Origin: a virus
Virus record (IMG/VR): IMGVR_UViG_3300034072_002238
Location: 1 to 60,534 of that record
Length of the DNA: 60,534 bases
Direction: 5' to 3' (one strand)
Within the stretch, counting starts at the first letter, position 1. Every line of letters begins with the position of its first letter. The notes beneath the pieces were generated by a model. That model was not told the DNA's origin. It ran no database searches and was given only the letters and a program-made list of their open reading frames with translations. A program made the translations under genes and the position numbers. Shown piece after piece: positions 2,695-36,550 of the stretch.

Positions 2695-3380
2695 GCGGCT
2701 TTGTCCTCGTAAATGGCTGGGTCCGCCTCGCAGCACTCTCTGGCGCGGAGCCTCCGACATATTCCCAGCGTCAGTTCTTTTCCGGTGCAGTGCCAACGCA
2801 GCGCCGCGGCCATCTCGGGCATGGTGGACTTCCGCGACGTTGATACGCGCAGCTCTCCACAGAGAACTCTCAATTCCTCGCGCCATAGCAGGTCCAGTGC
2901 GCCTTCCGGCAGCGGGGCATCGAGCCGCCGCTGTTTGAGGTCCCAACGCTCAAAACCATCGTGAGACCACGACGGATCGAGCGTCCTTCTGACCTTCGGG
3001 AACACCCACGTTTCAGCGGAATAGTCCCAATTTTGCGGGTATGTCTTGAGATAGAACTCTCCGTCCCGCTCGTAGTGACATGCCTTGGGGTGCGTCTTCT
3101 GCTCGATGAGGAATTTCTCGTGAATAGCCGCAACGGTCAGATGCGAGCACTTGCTCATGGCGGCGACCTGGTCCCGCAATCGGTCCAGCTTGTCCTTCGC
3201 TGATTTGATCTCGACGGCGATAATCTCAGCATGGCCGACCGCGATAAGATCCATGCGATTGGTGCCTAGACCACTGACATTGATCTCGTGGATGATCCGA
3301 GCGCTGGGGCGTAGTTCGCGCAGGCGCGCGACTACCGCGTCCCGGATTTCGGCTTCAGCGGTCGAGCGATAAGCAGGCAT
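2691..3380 (-). CDS. PD-(D/E)XK nuclease-like protein
   Basis: 229 residues. The N-terminal half carries the signature of the restriction-endonuclease-like fold: an acidic helix (about 8-20), then RMDLIAVG (D at about 44) and, 14 residues on, VEIKSAKDKLDRLRDQ (E at about 57, K at 59). This resembles the MmcB/sce7726-like nucleases of alphaproteobacteria. A DNA repair or DNA-processing role is an inference. The C-terminal 100 residues are not recognised. It lies between a lipoprotein gene and small unknown genes, 3 bp from the former. A catalytically dead relative is possible. Confidence 0.6.
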   Translation of the reverse strand: MPAYRSTAEAEIRDAVVARLRELRPSARIIHEINVSGLGTNRMDLIAVGHAEIIAVEIKSAKDKLDRLRDQVAAMSKCSHLTVAAIHEKFLIEQKTHPKACHYERDGEFYLKTYPQNWDYSAETWVFPKVRRTLDPSWSHDGFERWDLKQRRLDAPLPEGALDLLWREELRVLCGELRVSTSRKSTMPEMAAALRWHCTGKELTLGICRRLRARECCEADPAIYEDKAA

Positions 3381-3383
3381 TCG

Positions 3384-3695
3384 TCACCTCGCCGCTTCCA
3401 ATTCGAACTGCTGGATCCCTCGCACCAAGGCGACAGGGGCAAAGTTTATCGGGCCATCCCGACCAAACATTCGGGCACTGGACGTGATTTGCAGCGAATT
3501 GAAGCGGACACTGTAGTTACAGTCTCCGCCGTGCCTCACTCGGTGGCACCAGGCGTCCACGACCATGCCTTCATTCCCGAACGCCTTCATCTGGACCATC
3601 TGCCCAGGCTTGAATGCCGGTTCGGGTCGTTCGTCGCCCTCGCAGGACGAAAGAACGACCATCGACATGACAATCGCAGCTGCACTCAATTTCAT
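3384..3695 (-). CDS. Putative lipoprotein
   Basis: 103 residues beginning with a lipoprotein signal peptide: a short basic start, a hydrophobic stretch (AAIVMSMVVL) and a lipobox LSSC with the lipidated Cys at about 18. The mature part is a small beta-rich domain with FKPGQMVQMK near its start, reminiscent of SH3-like folds. Membrane-anchored phage lipoproteins made in lysogens often act in superinfection exclusion; here that is only a guess from location in the lysogeny-side operon. Start overlaps the preceding stop (ATGA). Confidence 0.7.
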   Translation of the reverse strand: MKLSAAAIVMSMVVLSSCEGDERPEPAFKPGQMVQMKAFGNEGMVVDAWCHRVRHGGDCNYSVRFNSLQITSSARMFGRDGPINFAPVALVRGIQQFELEAAR

Positions 3696-3895
3696 TGGAC
3701 ACCTCCACCGGGCTTGCTCTGCCCCTCGTTGAAATCACGCTGACGGCCAACGGCCTCGCCCCACGTCTCACAGAGCGCGACCACGATGCCCTCAATCCGG
3801 CTCTCGGTCTGTGTCGCGCGATCCACTTTCAGCACCGCAAATTTCTCCGGCTGGTCTGCTATGAGCTCGATAACTTCGAAGGTGAAATTGCTCAT
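3692..3895 (-). CDS. Hypothetical small protein
   Basis: 67 residues, a predicted alpha/beta protein (FTFEVIELI... KFAVLKVDR) with no recognised domain. It overlaps the methyltransferase upstream and the lipoprotein downstream by 4 bp each, so it is translationally coupled to both. Confidence 0.65.
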   Translation of the reverse strand: MSNFTFEVIELIADQPEKFAVLKVDRATQTESRIEGIVVALCETWGEAVGRQRDFNEGQSKPGGGVQ

Positions 3896-22020: not shown

Positions 22021-22818
22021 ATGACATGCGGCTGCCTTGTCGAGGGCTGCGAGCGTCCGCACAAAGCTCGAGGCTGGTGCCATCTGCACTATCAGCAGCA
22101 TCGTCGGGCAGGTACCAGTCACGGAGGCCCGAGGAATAAAGCAGAGGATGGGGCGGTTGCAATATACCTTCGAGAAGTTGCCTTCGTCTACGAAGGCGAT
22201 GACTGTCTGCCATGGCCATTCTCAACAAATGGGCGAGGGTACGGTCGGGCTCGCCTCGACGGGAAGCCAGGTTATGCGCATGTTTTTGTTTGCGAGCACC
22301 ACTGCGGACCTAAGCCAACCCCAGAACATGAGGCAGCGCATTCATGCGGCAAGGGTCACCTGGGTTGCATCACAAAGAGGCACCTCCGTTGGGCCACTCC
22401 TCGCGAGAACTCGATGGACCGCCTTTTGCACGGGACGGACCCGCGCGGGGAGAAAAGCGCGCTAGCGAAGCTGTCCAATTCAGATGTTGAAGCAATCCTC
22501 AAGAGCCGCGAAAGCCACACCAAACTTGCCGTTCGGTACGGCGTATCACTCTCCAACATCGAGTCGATCCGCTCTGGCAGGTCATGGGCCTGGATGGGCA
22601 GAGATAAAACGCCCACCGCTGAAAAAGGATATGTCAGGGGGGATAATCACCCGTCATCGAAACTGACCGAACAGGACGTCCTAGAGATCGTCAGACGTAG
22701 AAGCGTGCGGACCAGAGCCCAACTTGCTGAAGAGTATGGTACCACCTTGAGCTCGATCGACGATATCCTTTACGGGAGGTCGTGGGCTTGGCTTACCGGG
22801 GCAAAGAAACGGCGCTAA
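22021..22818 (+). CDS. HNH endonuclease with zinc-knuckle N-terminus and two repeated HTH modules
   Basis: 265 residues. N-terminus: CLVEGCERPHKARGWCHLHY, a zinc knuckle (1-24). Residues about 87-133 are the His-Me finger: HVFVCEHHCG, AAHSCGKGHLGCI and HLRWATPRENSMD. Two C-terminal repeats follow, KLSNSDVEAIL to GRSWAW (about 150-191) and KLTEQDVLEIV to GRSWAW (about 214-256), each a helix-turn-helix module as in free-standing homing endonucleases. It probably cuts a specific site, spreading itself or aiding recombination. It ends at the convergence point with the giant minus-strand gene (4-bp overlap). Confidence 0.82.
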   Translation: MTCGCLVEGCERPHKARGWCHLHYQQHRRAGTSHGGPRNKAEDGAVAIYLREVAFVYEGDDCLPWPFSTNGRGYGRARLDGKPGYAHVFVCEHHCGPKPTPEHEAAHSCGKGHLGCITKRHLRWATPRENSMDRLLHGTDPRGEKSALAKLSNSDVEAILKSRESHTKLAVRYGVSLSNIESIRSGRSWAWMGRDKTPTAEKGYVRGDNHPSSKLTEQDVLEIVRRRSVRTRAQLAEEYGTTLSSIDDILYGRSWAWLTGAKKRR

Positions 22819-25800
22819 TAAATCCGAGCCGGCATTGCCGCTCTCAACCGCTGGCTCAGGATCTCGTTCTGGATCACAACGCCATCCTCGCGCTTCGCAG
22901 CATTCCGCTGCCGCGTCTTGATCGACCGCTTTAGCGTGTCACCGGTGATCGGGATGGCGCTGTGAACCGGCTTTTTGTTGAACGCCTTCACCCGGTCCAG
23001 CGCTTCCGCCACGCCTTCCTTGTCGCCAGCAATCGCTGCCATGGCCCAGGCGTTCACGATCCGCTGCCGATCATCCATGACACGTTGCTCGGCATTCTTG
23101 AGTGCACCGGAGCGCTCCCAGGTTTCAGACACGACGGCGGGGGAGATCCCCATAGCCTGGGCCACGGCGCCGTGAATGCCGATCTGCTCGGCCGGCAACA
23201 GCTCATCGCCCCGGATCGACTGCAGCCCCTCGTTGGCATAGCGGAACGCCTTCATCGGATCGCGGATGAACTTGGGTGCCGCGACCTCGATGCCGCGGGC
23301 CACGTCGCCCTCCATGACAAGCGATGCGCCACGGAACCACTGTTCGCCAATCCCGGCTGTCGCGCCCAGTGCCTGGCTGAGCCAGAACTGCCACTCCTCC
23401 TTGCCCTGCAGATCCTGCCCCGGAGAGCGGAACCACAAGTCCGGCATGCCAATTCGGCTGGTGAGATCGACGCCGAGGTAATGTCCAGGCACCCCCTTAA
23501 GCACAACGCCGCCCAGCTCCGGCCCAAGGATGTCGAGCACATCGGCTTTGAACCGTTCCTCGAATTCCATCGGATCATCGTCATCTCCAAATATCATGCC
23601 GGCGACCGCCATCATGAGATTGAAGCCGAACGTGCCGGTGACGCCTGCCATCAGCGTCATCATCCCCGTTACGCCGGCCAGCTGGTACCGAGCCTCGCGC
23701 CGAGCCTGCGCGCTCTCGCCCTTCACAGACTGATGGATATCCCGGAACATGCGGTAAAGCATATTCACGCTGTACGAGCGAAAGACCAGCGCCACCTTAG
23801 CAAAGTCGTTTTGCATGAAACGCGGTCTCGATGAATTACTAAAGTCAAAATGGACGCGATAGGTCAGATCATGGGCGCTGTCGATCGCGTCAAGATGGCT
23901 CTGCCCCGACTTGCGCGCCAGACGATAGGCAGCAAGCGCCGTCGCCTCGCGGTTCCAAACTTCGGTGTTGTGGAACGCCCAGGACATGACGCCCATGACA
24001 CGGGCCCGGAGCGGCGAATATTTCACGCCCGTGTCGCCCACGCCGGCGAGATCATGGCTCTGGGTCCGGTCGATCATGCCGCTGCGATAGAACGCATCGA
24101 CGGCCGCCATCTCCTCGCGGGTCAGGTTGGCGTTTCGCACGCTGCCCTTGCCGCTGATCAGGTCCGACGACGCCTTTGCCACTTCGACGCTGGCCCGGCC
24201 AAGACCGCCGAAACGTGCGCCAAGGATCGGGAGGCCCATCATGAACGTTTGCGTCAGGTTAAGCACGGCCGCTGCCGGTGAGGCAGCGAGGAACCAGACG
24301 AACGCCGTGCTGGTCATGGTCTGGGCGACCGATCCACCGGTCGGGTTCATGACCCACTTGTGCCGCGACGCCAACTCGTTAGCCAGCCGCATCGCGCGGG
24401 TCTGATCATCGGCTGCCTCGGCCTGGTCAAACGTCGTGTTGACCAGTTCCTGCAGCTCGAGACCGTATTTCAGCTTCGCCATCTGATGCGCGGCGTGGAA
24501 CATGTGCGACGAGAACACGCGCAGCGCATCCGTGTCATAGCCGGCCGTGCCCTTGCGGTGCATGTAGCGCTTGCGCATCGACAGCTCGGGCAGCGTTTCT
24601 ATGTACCTGGCCCAAACAGCCCCCATGACATCGTTATCGACCCCGGCATTGCCAAGCAGCTGCTCCACTTCGGCCACCATGCGCGGGTCCATGGCGGCAC
24701 GGGGATCGCTCATCTCCTTCATCACGCCTTTGGTGATCGCAGCGCCGGGATAGTCTCGCTGGATGTCCCGTGCGAACCGGTCGCGATCCGCAGCGCGCTC
24801 GAATTTTGAGAAGCTGATCACACTGCCGTCGACATCCTTGGCCGTGACGTAATACTGCCCGAAGCGACCGAGGGGGAAATACGGAGCCGGGACACGGTTG
24901 CTCTCGAACTGGATGCGCAACTTGGTAAGCCGAGCCTTGGCAGACCAGTCCATTTTCGTGCTTTCGGACTTATACCGGCTGGCCGCATCCTCTTCCGCCT
25001 TGCGGCGGTCGATCGGGTTCATCTTCGCGTTGCGGATTTCTTCCAGCTTCTGCTTGTACCGGGTTTCGGCCTGATCCTTCGCGATCTGCTGCGACTTGCG
25101 GACATTGTCGAGCAGGATCTGGTCGAGTTCGTCGGCCTGGGCACGGTAGGCATCGCGCACCTTGGCAAACAGTTCCTTGCCTGCCGGCGCCAACGCCTGG
25201 TACCGCTTGCGCAGAATGTCATATCCAGCCTTGGCCTTCGTCTCGTCGTCGGTCAGGCTGGGATCGATCCCGGCAAGCGTGCTCTCGTGCATCAGGTTTG
25301 CCAGTTCCTGCGCCTTGGCCTTGTTCGCCTTCCCGAAACCAAGCCGCATGTATTTCAGCCAGTCGCCTGCGATCGCGTCTGCCTCGGCATGCTTGTCGCC
25401 GCGATAGGCATCCATGAGACGCTTTACGCCCATGTATTCCTTCACAGCAGTCATGTTTGGCCGCGCGAGCTCGACGAAATAGTTGAGTGGGACGGTGGCG
25501 AGCACCGACGGGTTCAGATCGGTCCACTTGCCGCTGATCGCCTCGACGATGCTGTTTTCGGAAATGCGGCGGGTGCCGGTCAGACGCCGAGCGTTTCGAC
25601 CTTGCGCAGTCGCTTGATAGTCTCCCGGGCTTCCTTCAGATAGGCCGCCTTGTCCACGAAGTTCTCCGACATCGATTCCAGCGTCTTGAGCCACTGCTCC
25701 CAGCTCTGCAACGTGTCGAAGGGGCTCGGTGGGTCGATAAAACCCGGCATCAGAAGGCGGCGTTGTTCTGCGCTCATCGAGTATTGTCCTTGCCAGTTTA

Positions 25801-28800
25801 AGCGCAGCCTTGTCGATGAAGTTTTCCAACATCGGTATATTAGAGATAGTATACGGCTGCGTGTTGATTAAATCAATGATGCCGGCGCGCCGAACCACCT
25901 CCGCCACAATGCTGTGGTGCGCCTCCTGAGCCTGCTCGGCAGTGATCGTCTTGGCTTCGACGCTTGACTGCAAAAGGAAACGCAGACCGTTGCCAACATC
26001 CTTGAAGGCTGCCTGAAGGCGGCTCATCGTCATGGTGAGGTCGTGAACTGATCCGTCCGTTGCCAAGGCGGCGCGCGCTTTGTCCGTGAGAGACGCGCGG
26101 CTTTCTCGACCATTGTGCCCAATAGCCCAAACCGAATAGATCCCTGGCAGGACCATCATCGACATGTCCGCAGTGCTTACCGGCCCGTTTCGAGGATGGT
26201 TGTGTACGATCACCAAGCGGCGATCAGGGTTGCTCGCGGCCTGTGCCAATGCGGTATTCAGCCCCACAAAGTTCGGCTGATCCGTAGTACCAAACTCAAT
26301 CACGCTGCCATCGTCTTCGATGGCCATGATGAATTCATTGCCGGTCTTGAGCCCGCGCTCAAGCACCGTTTCTCTGGCCCAGGTGAAGATTGGCGCCGCA
26401 GCATCGCGTTTGGGCACAGGAATGCGGCGGAACGCGCTGGTCGTTCCTACAGCCGCCTCACCGTCTGGCCGTTTTTCACGAGGCTGCAGGATCTGCGGCT
26501 GAGTGTCTGCGGCCGGTTCATTTGCGACCGCTGGCTTCGCGGGCGCAGTTGGCTCCATCACGGTCTCAGAAACGAGCTTATCCGTGCCGATCACCTTGTA
26601 GTCGTTGGCTGGCTTGAGGACGTTTATTCCGGCACGAGCCGCGGCCGTCTCCAGCGCCCTGATCGTTGCGGCAGCAGCTTGCGAAATATCGCCGCCCGTT
26701 GAGTAGCCGAAATAGGCATCGTAGCTGGAGATGCGGACGAAGCTGCCGCGCTCCTTGTCGATCAGCTTGTTCGCGCCCATGCGCGCGAAGAACTCTGCAT
26801 GGTCGCCGTTGGTGTTGTGCGTCGGTCTGATCAGGTAGAGCTTGCCTGATGGCTCAATGACAGCGGCGCCCATGCCGTCTCGTTTGGTGCTGAGCTGCTC
26901 AACGAATTTCGGTACCGAAATACGGGTGAGCAGGTCTTTGTAGATCTGCTCCTTGGTTTCGGTCAGATAGTCATCACCGTATTCGTCTTTCGGTCGCCAG
27001 CCTTCATCCTCCGTCGGCGGCGGGCTCCAGAAGACGTCATTGAACGGATTGGATGCCGGCTCATCGGTCCAGCCGCGATTGAGCCAATCCTTGAAATTAT
27101 CGAGTCTCGTTGCAGTGACCGGCCCCAGTTCCCAGCCCTTCGTGTAGTTCGCCAGATAGGCCTTCTCTGCCTCGTCCTGTGTTTGGAACCCGAGCATGAC
27201 CTTGTGCTCGTCGAACTCCCCATCGCTGCTTTCCTGGTCGACGATGAAGACAGGCGAGTTTGCTTCCAGCGTGTCCGTACCCGGTTTCACAAAGACGTCT
27301 ACATGGTCGCCGTCGCTGCCGCGCGTGCGCCGAATGTAACCGTAGTGACTACGCATCTCGACGGACCAGGCCTTGCCGTCCTTGTCCGTGCCCTTGCGCT
27401 CGGAACCAGCCGGGTTCTCGATCGAGATGTCGAGGCCGCCTAGCGTGATGCGGCCAACCTTGTAGTTCCCAGCCTCTTTCTGTGCCGGCGTAGGCTCCGG
27501 CAGATCGTTCGTTGGCGAGGTGGCAGCTTGGTTGGCTGCGTCATCAACCGTCTGCTCTGCTGGCGCATCTGCAGCGTCTGGCGCTTTCTTCGCACTCTTT
27601 CCGGGTTTGCCTTCGCCGTAGATCTGGCGGAAGGTTTCCTCATCCAGCAGCTCTGCGGCTTCATATTTGCCCTTCTCAAAGGCGATCGTTTCCAACGCTT
27701 TCAGCCGCTCTGCCTTCGACATGGAGTTGATGCGGTCCTGCGCCTCTTGGCTCAGGCTCTCGATCGGAACGCTGTCGTCTTCGGCGTTGAAGTATCTGTT
27801 TATCTCGCCATTAATCCGCGCCTCCGATTCGACGGAATTAGCCTCCGTCGAATCCTCGTCAGTCGGCGCTTCCGCTGCCGCTAACTTCTCGCTGCGCACG
27901 GTTGCCAACTTCCGCTGCATGGCGGCCGACAGATCGGCCCAAGGCGTCTTTGGTGGGCGCTTGATATTGGCCGAAATCATCGCGAGGCGGCGGCCTTCGT
28001 AGTCCAGTTCCCGGTCATACCAAGCCTGCGTCTCATCCGCTGCCGGGCTGGTGTCTGCGTCGACCACCTCACGGCGCCAGCGGGCAAGGATGTTATCCAT
28101 GACCGGAGGCATGCGCTGCGGCAGCTTCGAGTTTGCGGAGCGCACATTACGCACCATGCGCGTGGCATAGTCGTCAGCCAGCTGGCCGACGGCCTGTTCC
28201 GAAATTCCGAACTCGTTCGCCAGTGCCTTCAACGCGCGCGGATCGACCTTGTCCAGATCAAGCTGCGAAGTGCCCATAACACGCTTCGACGATTGCCGTT
28301 CTTTCCCGAGGTCAAACAGCCGGGCGTGCTTGTCATCCGGCAGCACGATAGTCTTGCCGAGAAGTGTCCGCGACGTCGGGCCTGCGTCTCCCACTTCGCG
28401 CTCAACCGGCGGATTGCGTTCGAGATCCTGCGCCTCAACCTGCTTTTCGGTGAGTTTCGAAACCTTGAGCGACGACACCGGAACCTGCAGGTCCTTGCCG
28501 TCTTCCGTGCGCACCAGAGCCTCTGTGCCACCATTCTCGTAGCCCTGCACGGTGGCGACAAACCGGCCGCCATTCTCGTCGTCGACGATGACGCTCTGCC
28601 CGGCTGTCGGCGCGCTGGGGAAGCGTTCCGTCGCCTCCTTCTGCTCCGATCGCGGCGGCAGACCCTCCGAACGCACCTCGGTCCCCACCGGCGCCATGGG
28701 TTCCAGGGCTGGGTCCGTCGAAAACTCGGGGATGGTGTCATTGATCGGCTGGGGCCCACGGTCGGGGATCGTCTCCATGGGCTTGGCGATCTGCGTCAGG

Positions 28801-31571
28801 TTCCTGAGCGGGATCTGGTAGACCTCGCCGGAACCGCTATCGACCACAACCGCTTCTTCGCCTTCGTAGCCGTCAACGCGACCCATGAACGGCTCGATCC
28901 CATCAGCGTCGATCCGGACCGTTGCGCCGACCTGCGGGCGACCACCTGCTGCTGGGGCTGCACCCGCTGCCGGCGCGCCTGGTGCAACTGGCGCAGGGAT
29001 CACATCGGCTGGCGCAGCGGCACCGCGCTCGGCGATCTGCTGCTCGGCATGCTGCACGGCGCGACCAATGGGGCCGCGTGGCGCCGCCGCTGCCGGTGCT
29101 GGATCAGGCTCTGCTGCAGGTTCAAGACTGCCGTCACGTGCTACGCGTCGATAGCCTTCCGGTACCGGCGCATCTGCACTCGTGGCGGTTTCGCGCTGCG
29201 GGCTGACCGCACCACCGGCGGCGCCCAGACCGCCGCCCATGACGCCGCCGCCGGCAATGCCGGATGCCACGGCCTCGCCGACACCTTCGGTCAGGTCCTG
29301 GTCTGGGTTGGCGTCGCGAACGCCGATGTTCTCGGCGACGGTTTGCGCTGCGCCCTGCGGCGCTTCTTCAAGCAGGCCTTCCGCGACCATGCCTCTTGCC
29401 GCGCCCGAAACCATGCGCTTGGCGACGCTGCCGCCAACGCCTTCAGCCAAAATCTTCGCAAGCGCACGGTCCCCCATGCCGCCGAACATGCCGGTAGCAA
29501 CGCCGGCAATAGCGAATGACTTCGTCGCGGCATCGTCGGAGAGGGCTGTCAAAGCTTCGTCTTCGGTCATCCCGCCCGCAACGAGGGCCTGAACCGTCTC
29601 TGTCTGCAGGAGTTGATCACGGGGAATGGCGGAGATGCGGTCGCGCACGGACTTAGCGGCGTCCGCACCCCCCAAGGTGCCCTCAAGTACGGCGCCGGCG
29701 ACCGTCGCTGTTCTCGCCGCCGCTGCTGCTGCTGCGCGCTCTGATCCAGTTGCAGCAAGGGTGCGAAGGTATGCGCCACGCGCCATCAATCCGCCGGGCG
29801 CCATTGTGACCACAGTGGCAGGAACGCTCTCGCCCACGGTCCGGAGATAGCTACGCGGGTCACGCCAGGCCGGGCCGAACCATCCACGTTCACTGTCCCA
29901 CCAGTTCTTGACGTCAGCGTCGGCCTGATCCGGACTGACCGACGCATTGGTCTGCGCCTTCGATGCATCGAGCCGCTGCTCAAGCGTCTGCCCCATGAAC
30001 CATCGGTCAATGTCATCCGATGCCTGCATGAGGGCCTTGCCGCCCGGCAGTTTGCTGAAAATCGTGTCAGACAGAGACATCAGCGATTGGCCAACGCCAA
30101 TGACGCCCGATTTCAGGATGCGCCCGGTATCTCCAGCCAAGCCGCCGGAGCGGTTTTCGTCTTCCCATTGCTGCTGGAACTGAGGCAACTCGGCCTCGTC
30201 GATCTCGACGTAGCGACCGGGGCTGTCGGCCTCCAACTCAGCGCGCCGCGCTTCGACATCACCGTTGTTGCGCTCATTGAACGCCCTGATCCGGTTCTGC
30301 TCGAACTGATCCGCAACCTGTGTCTGTTCCGCTTCCTTTGCGGCTTTCACTTCTGCCGCTTTGTCGGCGAACGGGTTGCCGCCGGCCATGAGCCCCATCG
30401 GGTCGCTGGCTGCAAAGCTGTCGTCGATCACGATTGTCTTGCCTGCGACCTGTGACGGGTTCGCTGTCTGGCTCTCGATTGCGGCTTGTGCTGGCGTTGG
30501 GCTGGCCGCGATTTCCTGAAACCACTGGGGCGCTCTGCCGAGGTTCTTGTTCGTCTTATCGTGCATGAACCAGGGGCGGCCGTCGCCCTGCTGGTCTTTC
30601 ATGTCGACGTGCAGCATGTCGGGGCTGTTGCTGTACGTGATGAACCGCTTCGCCCCGCGCGAAAGCAGAGACTGCACGAGCGTCTTGCGCTCCTGCTCGC
30701 TCATGCCCTTCATAGAGATATCGCTTGCCGTGCCGTGGGAATGCTCGCCCGGCTGCTGCTTCCTCGCTTCCACAGAATGCTGCGGGCTGCGGTAGCCGGA
30801 TAAGACGGTAAGTCCGCGGCCCAGGTCCTGCGATGCGCCCTCCAACACGCTGCGGAACGTCGGCTGAATTTCGTCCTGCCCCGGGTTCACGAAGGCAAGC
30901 GCACCAGCATTGCCGGTCATCGGCGCTGGCTCATCGGGTAGCAGGTCAGCGATACCCCGCCCCTTCGGCGCACGGACGGTCTTTTCCTCGGACTTGCCCG
31001 ATAGCACCGCCGCGAAAGGATCTCCGTCCAGCCCGATCTGGCCGGCCAGTTCGTTGTAGCTCGGCACACGCTTCTTCGTGTCAGGCCCAGTCTCGGCGCG
31101 GTAAAACAAATGCTCGCCGACTTCGGCGGTTTTCGGCATCTTCGACGCCCAGTCAGGGTTCACGGACTTGGCGTGGTAGTGATCGGCCTCGCCTGTGATG
31201 TCGGGCAACTCGCCGGCAAGAACGGCATCAAGGATCGATTCCGCCTTAGCGCGGATGGTCGGATCTTCCATGGCCTTGAGCGCCTGCGGGCCGGGCTTGG
31301 CGTAACCCGTGAACTGATCCGGCTCTCGAACCACGTCGGCCGGTGACTTGCCTCGGCGATCGGCCCGGTTCTTGATGACCTGGGCAACGGCGGTCATGCC
31401 CTGCTCGCCTTCGCCAGCCGCCTCGGCGATGATCGTCTTCACCAGGTCTGCGCGATCGACATCGGGCAACTGGGTGCGCGGCTTCGGAGGCTCTGCCGCT
31501 GCAGGCTTGCCGCCGTAGATGTTCAGAGGGTCATTCCAGGCAGTGTCGCCGAGACCGATGACGATGGGCAT
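22815..31571 (-). CDS. Giant polyvalent ejection protein (SleB, M15, InPase-like, JAB, PLxRFG domains)
   Basis: 2918 codons, the largest gene. Domains in order: SleB-type cell-wall hydrolase (about 41-165, Glu in IIAEAAGEGEQG); M15-type D-Ala-D-Ala peptidase (about 235-340, SGYRSP, HSHGTASD, HVD, with the zinc ligands present); Ala/Gly-rich segments (about 590-790) that may cross membranes; an inorganic-pyrophosphatase-like domain (about 1368-1500, HYGYIRRTRGSDGDHVDVFV); a JAB/MPN metalloprotease (about 1727-1835, VHNHP and later STAD); a helical C-terminal half with the FPLGRFG (PLxRFG) motif at about 2232 and hydrophobic stretches. Such polyvalent proteins are known to be packed in podovirus heads and injected with the DNA. 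The two murein enzymes would open the wall; the others would act in the cytoplasm. Residues about 1927-2002 are read in a doubtful frame (see 25580-25777). Confidence 0.85.
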   Translation of the reverse strand: MPIVIGLGDTAWNDPLNIYGGKPAAAEPPKPRTQLPDVDRADLVKTIIAEAAGEGEQGMTAVAQVIKNRADRRGKSPADVVREPDQFTGYAKPGPQALKAMEDPTIRAKAESILDAVLAGELPDITGEADHYHAKSVNPDWASKMPKTAEVGEHLFYRAETGPDTKKRVPSYNELAGQIGLDGDPFAAVLSGKSEEKTVRAPKGRGIADLLPDEPAPMTGNAGALAFVNPGQDEIQPTFRSVLEGASQDLGRGLTVLSGYRSPQHSVEARKQQPGEHSHGTASDISMKGMSEQERKTLVQSLLSRGAKRFITYSNSPDMLHVDMKDQQGDGRPWFMHDKTNKNLGRAPQWFQEIAASPTPAQAAIESQTANPSQVAGKTIVIDDSFAASDPMGLMAGGNPFADKAAEVKAAKEAEQTQVADQFEQNRIRAFNERNNGDVEARRAELEADSPGRYVEIDEAELPQFQQQWEDENRSGGLAGDTGRILKSGVIGVGQSLMSLSDTIFSKLPGGKALMQASDDIDRWFMGQTLEQRLDASKAQTNASVSPDQADADVKNWWDSERGWFGPAWRDPRSYLRTVGESVPATVVTMAPGGLMARGAYLRTLAATGSERAAAAAAARTATVAGAVLEGTLGGADAAKSVRDRISAIPRDQLLQTETVQALVAGGMTEDEALTALSDDAATKSFAIAGVATGMFGGMGDRALAKILAEGVGGSVAKRMVSGAARGMVAEGLLEEAPQGAAQTVAENIGVRDANPDQDLTEGVGEAVASGIAGGGVMGGGLGAAGGAVSPQRETATSADAPVPEGYRRVARDGSLEPAAEPDPAPAAAAPRGPIGRAVQHAEQQIAERGAAAPADVIPAPVAPGAPAAGAAPAAGGRPQVGATVRIDADGIEPFMGRVDGYEGEEAVVVDSGSGEVYQIPLRNLTQIAKPMETIPDRGPQPINDTIPEFSTDPALEPMAPVGTEVRSEGLPPRSEQKEATERFPSAPTAGQSVIVDDENGGRFVATVQGYENGGTEALVRTEDGKDLQVPVSSLKVSKLTEKQVEAQDLERNPPVEREVGDAGPTSRTLLGKTIVLPDDKHARLFDLGKERQSSKRVMGTSQLDLDKVDPRALKALANEFGISEQAVGQLADDYATRMVRNVRSANSKLPQRMPPVMDNILARWRREVVDADTSPAADETQAWYDRELDYEGRRLAMISANIKRPPKTPWADLSAAMQRKLATVRSEKLAAAEAPTDEDSTEANSVESEARINGEINRYFNAEDDSVPIESLSQEAQDRINSMSKAERLKALETIAFEKGKYEAAELLDEETFRQIYGEGKPGKSAKKAPDAADAPAEQTVDDAANQAATSPTNDLPEPTPAQKEAGNYKVGRITLGGLDISIENPAGSERKGTDKDGKAWSVEMRSHYGYIRRTRGSDGDHVDVFVKPGTDTLEANSPVFIVDQESSDGEFDEHKVMLGFQTQDEAEKAYLANYTKGWELGPVTATRLDNFKDWLNRGWTDEPASNPFNDVFWSPPPTEDEGWRPKDEYGDDYLTETKEQIYKDLLTRISVPKFVEQLSTKRDGMGAAVIEPSGKLYLIRPTHNTNGDHAEFFARMGANKLIDKERGSFVRISSYDAYFGYSTGGDISQAAAATIRALETAAARAGINVLKPANDYKVIGTDKLVSETVMEPTAPAKPAVANEPAADTQPQILQPREKRPDGEAAVGTTSAFRRIPVPKRDAAAPIFTWARETVLERGLKTGNEFIMAIEDDGSVIEFGTTDQPNFVGLNTALAQAASNPDRRLVIVHNHPRNGPVSTADMSMMVLPGIYSVWAIGHNGRESRASLTDKARAALATDGSVHDLTMTMSRLQAAFKDVGNGLRFLLQSSVEAKTITAEQAQEAHHSIVAEVVRRAGIIDLINTQPYTISNIPMLENFIDKAALKLARTILDERRTTPPSDAGFYRPTEPLRHVAELGAVAQDAGIDVGELRGQGGLSEGSPGDYQATAQGRNARRLTGTRRISENSIVEAISGKWTDLNPSVLATVPLNYFVELARPNMTAVKEYMGVKRLMDAYRGDKHAEADAIAGDWLKYMRLGFGKANKAKAQELANLMHESTLAGIDPSLTDDETKAKAGYDILRKRYQALAPAGKELFAKVRDAYRAQADELDQILLDNVRKSQQIAKDQAETRYKQKLEEIRNAKMNPIDRRKAEEDAASRYKSESTKMDWSAKARLTKLRIQFESNRVPAPYFPLGRFGQYYVTAKDVDGSVISFSKFERAADRDRFARDIQRDYPGAAITKGVMKEMSDPRAAMDPRMVAEVEQLLGNAGVDNDVMGAVWARYIETLPELSMRKRYMHRKGTAGYDTDALRVFSSHMFHAAHQMAKLKYGLELQELVNTTFDQAEAADDQTRAMRLANELASRHKWVMNPTGGSVAQTMTSTAFVWFLAASPAAAVLNLTQTFMMGLPILGARFGGLGRASVEVAKASSDLISGKGSVRNANLTREEMAAVDAFYRSGMIDRTQSHDLAGVGDTGVKYSPLRARVMGVMSWAFHNTEVWNREATALAAYRLARKSGQSHLDAIDSAHDLTYRVHFDFSNSSRPRFMQNDFAKVALVFRSYSVNMLYRMFRDIHQSVKGESAQARREARYQLAGVTGMMTLMAGVTGTFGFNLMMAVAGMIFGDDDDPMEFEERFKADVLDILGPELGGVVLKGVPGHYLGVDLTSRIGMPDLWFRSPGQDLQGKEEWQFWLSQALGATAGIGEQWFRGASLVMEGDVARGIEVAAPKFIRDPMKAFRYANEGLQSIRGDELLPAEQIGIHGAVAQAMGISPAVVSETWERSGALKNAEQRVMDDRQRIVNAWAMAAIAGDKEGVAEALDRVKAFNKKPVHSAIPITGDTLKRSIKTRQRNAAKREDGVVIQNEILSQRLRAAMPARIY
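25580..25777 (-). other. Alternative-frame coding block inside the giant gene
   Basis: A 65-codon open frame (+1 relative to the main frame) from ATG 25777 to TGA 25580. It looks more protein-like than the host frame: hand-counted G/C at third positions is about 80% (52/65), against about 41% for the main frame over the same bases. The peptide has natural composition (LLMPGFIDPPSPFDTLQSWEQWLKTLE). AAGGA lies 9 nt before the ATG. It is either an overlapping small gene or the mark of two compensating frameshifts. Confidence 0.5.
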
Positions 31572-34324: not shown

Positions 34325-36550
34325 CTATCCTAGTCCGATGTTCTGTTGGGGTTGGGGTGCCTGCTGCGCCTGTGCCTGGGCAGCGGCGGCCTGCTGCTCT
34401 GCCGCAGCTTTGGCCTGCTCTTCGCCTTCCGTGCGCGAGACAAAGCCTGCCTCGTGCAGGAGATGGTCAGCTACGTCGGATACAACGGGCACCGCGGACA
34501 CGGTGCCGGCCGTCTCGACGGCGGTCTTCTGAGTTTCGACGCGGGTCTTGGCGGCCCTTGCTTGCGCTTCCTGCGCCTGGGCGTCCGACTTGCGGGCGTC
34601 GGCCATCAACTTCGCCAAGGCTGCCATGATCTGCTGCTGGTTCAGCGCGCTCATCTGATCAGCCTGAGCCTTGCGCGCCTGCTGATCGGGATCATCCTGC
34701 TCCGCATCGGGGTCAACCATGCCTGTGACCTGACGGATGCGCTTCACGAGCTCGTCGCGTTGCGGGATGTCCATCGATTCCACGATGAGATCGAGCGAGA
34801 TCATGACGAGCTGCGGCGCGACCGGCGCCAGCTTGCCGAGGAGGTCGAGCAGCTCGGCCACCTGCGCCTGACGGACGGACGCGCGCCAATCGTCTTCATC
34901 GATGATGAAATCAGCCTTGCTGCGGATGATATCGTTCTCCGGCAGACCGTCGTTGACCGTGACATACTCCGGAGAGCCCCGGCTGTTCGTGATCCGGAAT
35001 TGCTTCTCTTCGGTCATGAACTGCTCGACGAGCGACAGTGTCTTCTCGCCTCGCACCTGGTTCGCGAAGCGGAGATTGTCGAACAGCCCGGCTGTGGCGA
35101 GTGCGCCCTGCTCTTGGCGGGCGGAGATAGCAACGCCTGACACGGCGTTCGTTGATCTGCCAAGGTTCTCGTCGGTCACCCCGCCGACCTGTTGCACCAT
35201 CTGGATGTTCCGCGACATCATCTCGAGGTGATACTGCGACAGCTCGCGATCGACGTTGAGGGTGAGCGATGTGCCCGCCTTCTTCACAATCACCGCATCT
35301 GGACGCGCGGCTTCCTCGACAAGCTGGTTCACGTCTTCGACGGCGCCTTCATCCATGATGATCTTGTTCGTCGAGATGATGTGCAGCGCCTTGGATGCGC
35401 GCTTGTTGATGTCCGTCTGGATGTCCCGGATGTTGCGTACCAGGCCATACGGCATGTTGTCGCGAGCCCGGCGCTTGTTCCAGATCGGGGTGAACGGGTA
35501 GCGATTGTGCCGGTAAGGCGATTCCGACAGCCAGAGCAGACCGGCTGTGGTGAACAGCGCGACATACATCCGCATGACCGGCTTTTCGATCAGCGTCCCG
35601 TCGCCGCTGTCGATCGCATCGGCATGGCCGGCCGAATATTCGTCGAAGATCTCACCGGCGAACATCCCGCCGGCAATCTTCCTCGTCTTCACCGGGGCAC
35701 GGAACCACATTTCGAAGATGCGCAGGCGATCTCGGCGATACCCCGTGACGTGGTCGCTGCTGGTGCCGCTGTCGCTCCAGCCCTGGTTCTCCATCTCGGC
35801 CTGGTCCATGGCGTGGTCGCCAAAGGAATCGAGGCCCATCCAGTTCAGCTTGTGGTCAACGGAGCGCTCGATCAGGCTGCGGCGCTTGGGGAAGGTGGCG
35901 CAGGCAACGTCCTTGTCGACCCACTTGCTGCGACCGACATACCGCCCGTCCTCGATGTCGAGGCGTGTTGCGGTGCTGTCCCAGATCATGTTCCGCCACG
36001 ATTCGTAGCGGGTGTAGAGCGGCTCGCCCTCGTCGTCGCCTTGCCAGCCATCCTCAATCCAGCCAATACCGGCCTTGGTCGCGTCGGCGAAGCCTCTGGA
36101 AACCTCGAACGGCGTTCGGTTGACGTCGGAATGATACTTGAGAAGCTCCGACTTCCGCCGGGCAGGCTCGCCGTGCTCCTTGCGGCGCGGCAGAACCTTG
36201 AAATCCGTCCGGCTGCGCTTCTCCGATCCCAGCACCCAGTCAATCGTGGTGGCGATGACGTTGAACACCAAAGGCATCTGGCCGCGCGCTTTCAGCGTCT
36301 CGGCGTCTTCGGTGCTCCACTGGATGTTGTCGTAGAAGTCCTCGTCGATCGCCATTTCGATGCGATTGGGTGCCTGGCGGTCAATCTCACGCTGCCAGAG
36401 GTCGAGAAGGCGGAGATGCAGCCGCACGTTCTCGCCACTGTCGAGCGAGTTTCCGCGCTTGGGCCGCATCGGAGGGCTGTCACCGCCGGGTATCGGCGAT
36501 TCGTACTTCTTCTTGCGGACAGAGCCGTCATCTGAGCGGAGGTCAAACAA
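34325..36550 (-). CDS. Portal protein, P22 type
   Basis: 741 residues. It forms the ring through which DNA enters and leaves. Recognisable blocks: FYDNIQWSTEDAETLKARGQMPLVFNVI, VLGSEKRSRTDFKVLPR, PFTPIWNKRRARDNMPYGLVRNIRDIQTDINKRASKAL, and a C-terminal Gln/Ala-rich coiled part (about 640-735), like the barrel helix of P22 gp1. Length agrees with that family. Lies between the 142-residue gene and the scaffold. Confidence 0.9.
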   Translation of the reverse strand: MFDLRSDDGSVRKKKYESPIPGGDSPPMRPKRGNSLDSGENVRLHLRLLDLWQREIDRQAPNRIEMAIDEDFYDNIQWSTEDAETLKARGQMPLVFNVIATTIDWVLGSEKRSRTDFKVLPRRKEHGEPARRKSELLKYHSDVNRTPFEVSRGFADATKAGIGWIEDGWQGDDEGEPLYTRYESWRNMIWDSTATRLDIEDGRYVGRSKWVDKDVACATFPKRRSLIERSVDHKLNWMGLDSFGDHAMDQAEMENQGWSDSGTSSDHVTGYRRDRLRIFEMWFRAPVKTRKIAGGMFAGEIFDEYSAGHADAIDSGDGTLIEKPVMRMYVALFTTAGLLWLSESPYRHNRYPFTPIWNKRRARDNMPYGLVRNIRDIQTDINKRASKALHIISTNKIIMDEGAVEDVNQLVEEAARPDAVIVKKAGTSLTLNVDRELSQYHLEMMSRNIQMVQQVGGVTDENLGRSTNAVSGVAISARQEQGALATAGLFDNLRFANQVRGEKTLSLVEQFMTEEKQFRITNSRGSPEYVTVNDGLPENDIIRSKADFIIDEDDWRASVRQAQVAELLDLLGKLAPVAPQLVMISLDLIVESMDIPQRDELVKRIRQVTGMVDPDAEQDDPDQQARKAQADQMSALNQQQIMAALAKLMADARKSDAQAQEAQARAAKTRVETQKTAVETAGTVSAVPVVSDVADHLLHEAGFVSRTEGEEQAKAAAEQQAAAAQAQAQQAPQPQQNIGLG

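Follow-up and report, generated by a model that had tools for sequence, protein, structure and literature searches.

A Conserved Gene Nested in the +1 Frame at the End of the JAB Domain of Giant Phage Proteins

The window analyzed here, the entire 60,534 nucleotides of the virus record IMGVR_UViG_3300034072_002238, carries on its minus strand a gene for a giant polyvalent virion-type protein of 2,918 amino acids (positions 22815 to 31571). The protein has Hydrolase_2, InPase, JAB, and LPD39 domains and a weak M15 match, and it belongs to PHROG 10089, DarB-like. Wholly within this gene, on the same strand but in the +1 frame, is an open reading frame (ORF) of 65 codons with the product MSAEQRRLLMPGFIDPPSPFDTLQSWEQWLKTLESMSENFVDKAAYLKEARETIKRLRKVETLGV (25580 to 25777, minus strand, stop codon included). 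It overlaps main-frame residues 1932 to 1998. An AAGGA ribosome-binding motif (25787 to 25791, minus strand) is positioned 9 nucleotides upstream of its ATG. The nested ORF begins where the JAB/JAMM domain of the giant protein ends (main-frame residues ~1727 to 1932; 25776 to 26393, minus strand) and is followed by the LPD39 domain (residues 2006 to 2189; 25005 to 25556, minus strand; Pfam PF18858, E value of 1.7e-60), the downstream fusion partner. The ORF is coding, its start codon and Shine-Dalgarno (SD) sequence are conserved, and it is linked to the JAB domain.

The initial annotation of this DNA had reported an inversion of G+C content at third codon positions (GC3) in this block, and recalculation gave the same picture, with 79% in the +1 frame and 41% in the main frame. 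By codon position, the G+C fractions were 0.58/0.41/0.79 in the frame of the small ORF and 0.80/0.58/0.41 in the main frame over the same bases, compared with 0.66/0.47/0.73 for the entire giant gene. The main-frame GC3 of 0.41 is in the lowest 0.4% of the 66-codon windows of the gene. A comparable inversion is also found in a linker near codon 810, and longer +1 ORFs that start with ATG are present elsewhere in the giant gene. Furthermore, 53% of synonymous re-codings leave the 65-codon +1 frame open. An open frame is not unusual per se, and ORF length was therefore discarded as evidence for a nested gene. Composition and an open frame are insufficient; it is conservation that lifts the nested ORF above chance. 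The adjacent stretch from 25800 to 25860, previously described as AT-richer than the rest, does have a low G+C content (44% versus 62% for the gene; lowest 0.9% of 61-nucleotide windows). This stretch codes for the C-terminal helix of the JAB domain, and its main-frame sequence is conserved. A similarity between this helix and the small ORF (24 of 30 nucleotides identical between positions 25832 to 25803 and 25672 to 25643, minus strand, 160 nucleotides apart) was treated as chance, with a local repeat as the other reading; the frames differ, and it was not seen in the relatives that were read.

Nested loci were located by tblastn with the peptide and then by scans of IMG/VR and GTDB contigs, and 25 distinct nested sequences, from alphaproteobacterial phages and prophages, were used. 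The tblastn matches were to PBC5 (E value of 5e-6), Atu_ph08 (2e-4), and, weakly, Ruegeria 45A6 (0.4), and all three carry the peptide inside a giant gene, shifted to the +1 frame. Each of the 25 distinct copies retained the ORF, always in the +1 relation, from an ATG, and at the C-terminal end of the JAB domain. Weak matches at two other loci (L050 and L051) were rejected as junk frames. Nine residues were invariant in a 13-row peptide alignment (M1, D15, P17, T22, L23, W26, K48, A50, and I54), and the N-terminal motif IDPPSPF-DTLQSW was conserved. The main-frame string RHVAEL is simply the other-frame reading of DTLQSW in the small protein. At peptide identities of about 30 to 60%, homologues still preserve the alternative peptide and its +1 offset from the main frame. 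When both translations were compared among 15 representative lineages, the small-frame peptides outscored the main-frame peptides (BLOSUM) in 104 of 105 pairs, the opposite of the result that the initial annotation had named as evidence against an alternative peptide.

These comparisons also bear on another proposal in the initial annotation, that two compensating indels altered the giant protein here. In this reading, an assembly error or a recent mutation would have placed ~66 codons of the giant protein in the wrong frame. The restriction of the composition inversion to this block would be expected from such an event. However, the same peptide and the same +1 relation recur in all nested homologues, including the isolate phages PBC5, Atu_ph08, and Ruegeria 45A6 and GTDB prophages, and a double indel is rejected, with almost no probability left to it. 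In contrast, the suggestion of a small internal gene with its own AAGGA and ATG was right, as the ORF, its start, and an SD-like motif are all conserved.

A ribosome-binding motif was found upstream of the ATG in all 25 nested copies, with an SD-like 4-mer or better in all 15 representative loci. At out-of-frame ATGs of the same genes the frequency of an SD-like 4-mer was 24% (binomial p = 4e-10, which is only a guide because the lineages are related). It might be considered that the small ORF is instead a C-terminal extension of the JAB part, reached by +1 programmed frameshifting that yields a truncated giant protein, because some loci have a +1 frame that stays open far ahead of the ATG (to a total of at most 173 codons). 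However, one locus (L023) has an in-frame TAA directly before the ATG, so that a ribosome shifted to +1 farther upstream would terminate before reaching the ORF. Retention of the ATG and SD in all lineages, stand-alone homologues that begin at their own ATG, and +1 sequence upstream of the ATG that is not peptide-like further argue against frameshifting, which we consider improbable.

In closely related pairs, synonymous differences in the main frame drop sharply over the nested ORF. Comparison of L018 with L019 gave 2 differences at 62 codons inside the ORF versus 1210/3583 outside (p = 5e-9), and comparison of L012 with L016 gave 0/62 versus 792/3774 (p = 5e-7). The corresponding values were 1/54 versus 486/3835 for L041 and L042 (p = 0.006) and 6/31 versus 886/1779 for the window and L040 (p = 5e-4). 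Purifying selection is thus apparent on both frames, from peptide conservation in the small frame and from the synonymous trough in the outer frame. The outer frame is open in all nested copies, and its own sequence is weakly conserved over the ORF; main-frame residues 1932 to 1998 are a linker shaped by the constraints of the small gene. A further low-synonymous window was observed in the LPD39 region in the comparison of the window with L040 (~24980 to 25130, minus strand, ~216 to 265 codons past the start of the small ORF), and similar windows were present in some other pairs.

A synonymous trough could also arise from an RNA structure or regulatory signal, with the peptide incidental. In some pairs the constraint does begin a little before the ATG, and the window sequence at the start site allows a 9-bp hairpin. 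However, this hairpin was no better than those of shuffled sequences (z = -0.55), the start-site folds differed among 11 relatives, and no conserved RNA structure was found at the nested start in either comparison. An RNA element could not produce amino acid conservation shared with stand-alone protein homologues. This explanation is therefore very improbable.

The product of the nested gene is predicted to be a helical hairpin (AlphaFold2 [AF2] model; confidence score, pLDDT, of 81). No significant family was found for it in Pfam, PHROGs, or NCBIfam, and searches of PDB and BFVD with Foldseek gave no match at an E value of ≤1e-3. The upstream domain is better defined. In the giant protein the JAB motif comprises E1746, the HNHP sequence at 1790 to 1793, S1799, and D1802, and the E, HxH, S, and D positions of the metal/catalytic motif (E20, H64, H66, S73, and D76) do not vary. 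Modeling with AF2 predicted a JAB fold for the domain (pLDDT of 92). Its best Foldseek matches in PDB were Pyrococcus JAMM1 and the JAB1/MPN protein AF2198, with modest scores; the top match, to JAMM1, had a probability of 1.00 but an E value of 0.028 and TM-scores of 0.36/0.54. Pfam gave a weak indication of RadC in the JAB region, which matched no family in Pfam or NCBIfam. LPD39, InPase, and Hydrolase_2 together give the giant protein the combination of LPD and enzymatic domains of a large polyvalent protein, and a Pfam scan of the window's giant gene found no MuF domain. A gene for a P22-like portal protein is located at 34325 to 36550 (minus strand; Pfam E value of 1.6e-181), and the giant gene is thus in the neighborhood of genes for virion structure. 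DarB-like giants have been found in virions of the related phage JC1 (PMC9144972).

In every nested copy that was aligned, the nested start coincides with the C-terminal end of the JAB/JAMM domain, so that the small ORF is immediately downstream of an effector-type domain. What comes after the pair varies: LPD39 in the window, a helicase in Ruegeria 45A6, and ART-PolyVal in L114. The peptide also occurs as an ordinary gene. In G106 it is encoded behind a MuF-JAB gene, with an ATGA overlap, and ahead of an HK97-gp10-like gene. The MuF domain is above the Pfam cutoff in G106 and just below it in G571. The small gene is found at the stop of the JAB gene in G571, G529, and G454 (the similarity is weak in G529), and L049, within L074, is a true stand-alone copy that has an ATG of its own. 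In G404 one copy is within the tail of the JAB gene, and there are three further copies. All four copies are behind a PBECR3-JAB gene (L070, 3463 to 5251), and copies 1, 3, and 4 each have similar JAB-tail sequence in front of them, resembling displaced effector-partner cassettes. Two tandem nested copies were observed in G391. A tblastn search with the stand-alone copies gave no matches in the phage collection. A profile built from the stand-alone genes alone matched the window peptide with an E value of 1e-13, compared with 0.17 for the best of 1400 shuffles.

The stand-alone profile result indicates that the small gene does not depend on the giant frame for its existence. The outer frame over the nested stretch is best read as the later addition. 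Over the stand-alone genes the outer frame was open in only 1 of 17 cases in the +1-type relation and in 0 of 17 in the other, and attaining the nested state thus required the loss of stop codons. The short overlaps of stand-alone genes are in phase +2, and the nested overlaps are in phase +1. This matches a general rule for unidirectional overlaps, among which phase 2 predominates in the short ones and phase 1 in the long ones, with formation usually by elongation of the upstream gene (PMC3887535). The nested gene probably descends from a small gene that many phages carry immediately behind, with an overlap of a few nucleotides, a gene for a MuF-type head protein that ends in JAB/JAMM. Extension of the JAB frame through the small gene and its joining to the downstream LPD39 would then have made the small gene internal. 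The initial annotation's notion of two genes fused around a third is supported as such an evolutionary origin, from a JAB gene, the small gene, and a downstream domain. The nested gene is neither the product of a double indel nor a de novo frame; it is the main frame that is an overprinted linker. Like gene E within gene D of phiX174 (PMC8227390), the small gene is wholly inside another, in the +1 frame, with both frames constrained. However, in nested genes of that type the nested frame is usually the one that arose de novo, whereas the nested gene in this case has homologues that stand alone, and it is the outer frame that is best read as the newcomer over this stretch.

We estimate a probability of about 80% that the region from 25580 to 25777 (minus strand) is a real, separately translated nested gene with a JAB-linked origin. 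Translation probably starts by internal initiation at the AAGGA and ATG of the small gene on the giant-gene mRNA, yielding the predicted two-helix hairpin protein, which might bind and restrain or escort the adjacent JAB domain in the producing cell ahead of packaging and delivery of the giant protein. The most likely function of the small protein, with chances about even, is that of a cognate partner of the adjacent JAB domain, a partner or immunity role suggested by its position, the tandem cassettes, and precedents among MuF and Tox-JAB systems.

In MuF polymorphic toxins (Jamet et al. 2017, PMC5576092), the gene for a MuF head protein with a C-terminal effector-type domain has a small ORF right behind it in 89.4% of cases, and these ORFs are proposed immunity genes. 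The gene order here is similar, except that the small gene is inside rather than behind the fused putative effector gene. JAB goes unmentioned in that study. Polymorphic toxins with Tox-JAB domains come with immunity proteins (2012, PMC3482391), and the present pair resembles them in combining a small gene with a JAB-fold domain, bearing E, HxH, S, and D, as the putative delivered effector. However, neither the JAB region nor the small protein matches a Pfam or NCBIfam family. RadC/JAB domains have been described in the large polyvalent proteins that phages and conjugative elements encode (Iyer et al. 2017, PMC5512222). The host gene is like these in having LPD39 plus several enzymatic domains but differs in having a separate gene in an interdomain linker; the word "overlapping" never appears in that paper.

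The main rival to the partner role is a plain assembly role, in which the nested gene is real but encodes a general head-tail assembly or structural protein, functionally unrelated to its JAB neighbor. The gene order in G106 (DnaT_2, Phage_attach, MuF-JAB, the small gene, HK97-gp10-like) and the location of MuF genes in the morphogenesis block are consistent with this possibility. However, the small gene follows JAB not only in LPD39, helicase, and ART-PolyVal giants but also behind the PBECR3-JAB gene, and cassettes of JAB tail plus small gene have been duplicated. The small gene is absent from relatives that lack this JAB domain (POI1126, Mwe-JY07, Skulduggery, Pavtok, PEp14, ZX1, Parlo, and LASTA). 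An unrelated assembly function is thus possible but the less likely of the two.

The small ORF and JAB also co-occur in a class-wide sample. A JAB-domain scan gave 76 IMG/VR loci, which were not deduplicated, included several near-duplicates, and came from a search pattern whose seeds were nested examples; 44 of the 76 had a small ORF at the JAB end, with 23 nested (+1) and 21 separate (mostly +2, with a short overlap or gap). Many of the other 32 had an ORF of 55 to 73 amino acids at the JAB stop, alike by eye. The composition of this sample weighs against a JAB-linked partner gene, as do several other observations. The distant relative L074 has no JAB within its 4-kb stretch, and a weak relative (L048; G142, from 1501 on) comes right after guaA (GMP synthase) and lacks a JAB gene; this copy is perhaps the remnant of an integrated element. 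In addition, a conserved motif such as that in the small protein is less typical of polymorphic immunity proteins.

A second, strong synonymous trough was detected ~2100 to 2230 codons upstream of the small ORF in the Agrobacterium clade, and it contains a +1 ORF (MNLNNWIELGRQHWKEF...) of ~100 amino acids. This second nested +1 gene (MNLNNWIELGRQHWKEFLPNRY...LLLPPE, ~100 amino acids) is unrelated to the first and was observed in L075 (Atu_ph08, 1501 to 1806), in L076 to L082, and in L018 (~3193 to 3762); it is not present in this window. The hosts are DarB-like giants in phages of Agrobacterium, Ochrobactrum, Vibrio, Erwinia, Klebsiella, and Pseudomonas and in a Microcystis phage. The gene is in the +1 frame in the giants of POI1126, VvAW1, Mwe-JY07, Pavtok, LASTA, and Itty13, and it had no annotation of its own in the records viewed. 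In the record of PBC5 (L076; NC_003324.1, 24658 to 27963) the second peptide shares the frame of the upstream ORF gp22, and the giant gene is divided into two parts. This arrangement, unlike that of all relatives viewed, is a frameshift of either the phage itself or its record. In Itty13 (L082; NC_070969.1, 5596 to 8823) the annotated genes are on the strand opposite the giant frame and the nested gene and are probably misannotated.

The annotation of these phages, including the reference isolate Atu_ph08, lists only the giant coding sequence, and thus a conserved gene has been missed; related giants miss the second nested gene as well. The direction of overprinting is clearly readable here, because relatives of the nested gene stand alone, which makes the outer frame the newcomer over that stretch. 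The locus provides a defined gene pair, a putative JAB effector and a predicted small helical protein, in phage-delivered proteins. A more tentative possibility is that giants carry the antidote or partner of an effector domain as a nested +1 gene that recombination cannot separate from it. JAB and its hidden partner might then move as a single cassette among LPD39, helicase, and ART giants, and the second family might reflect a recurrence of nested genes in DarB-like giants.
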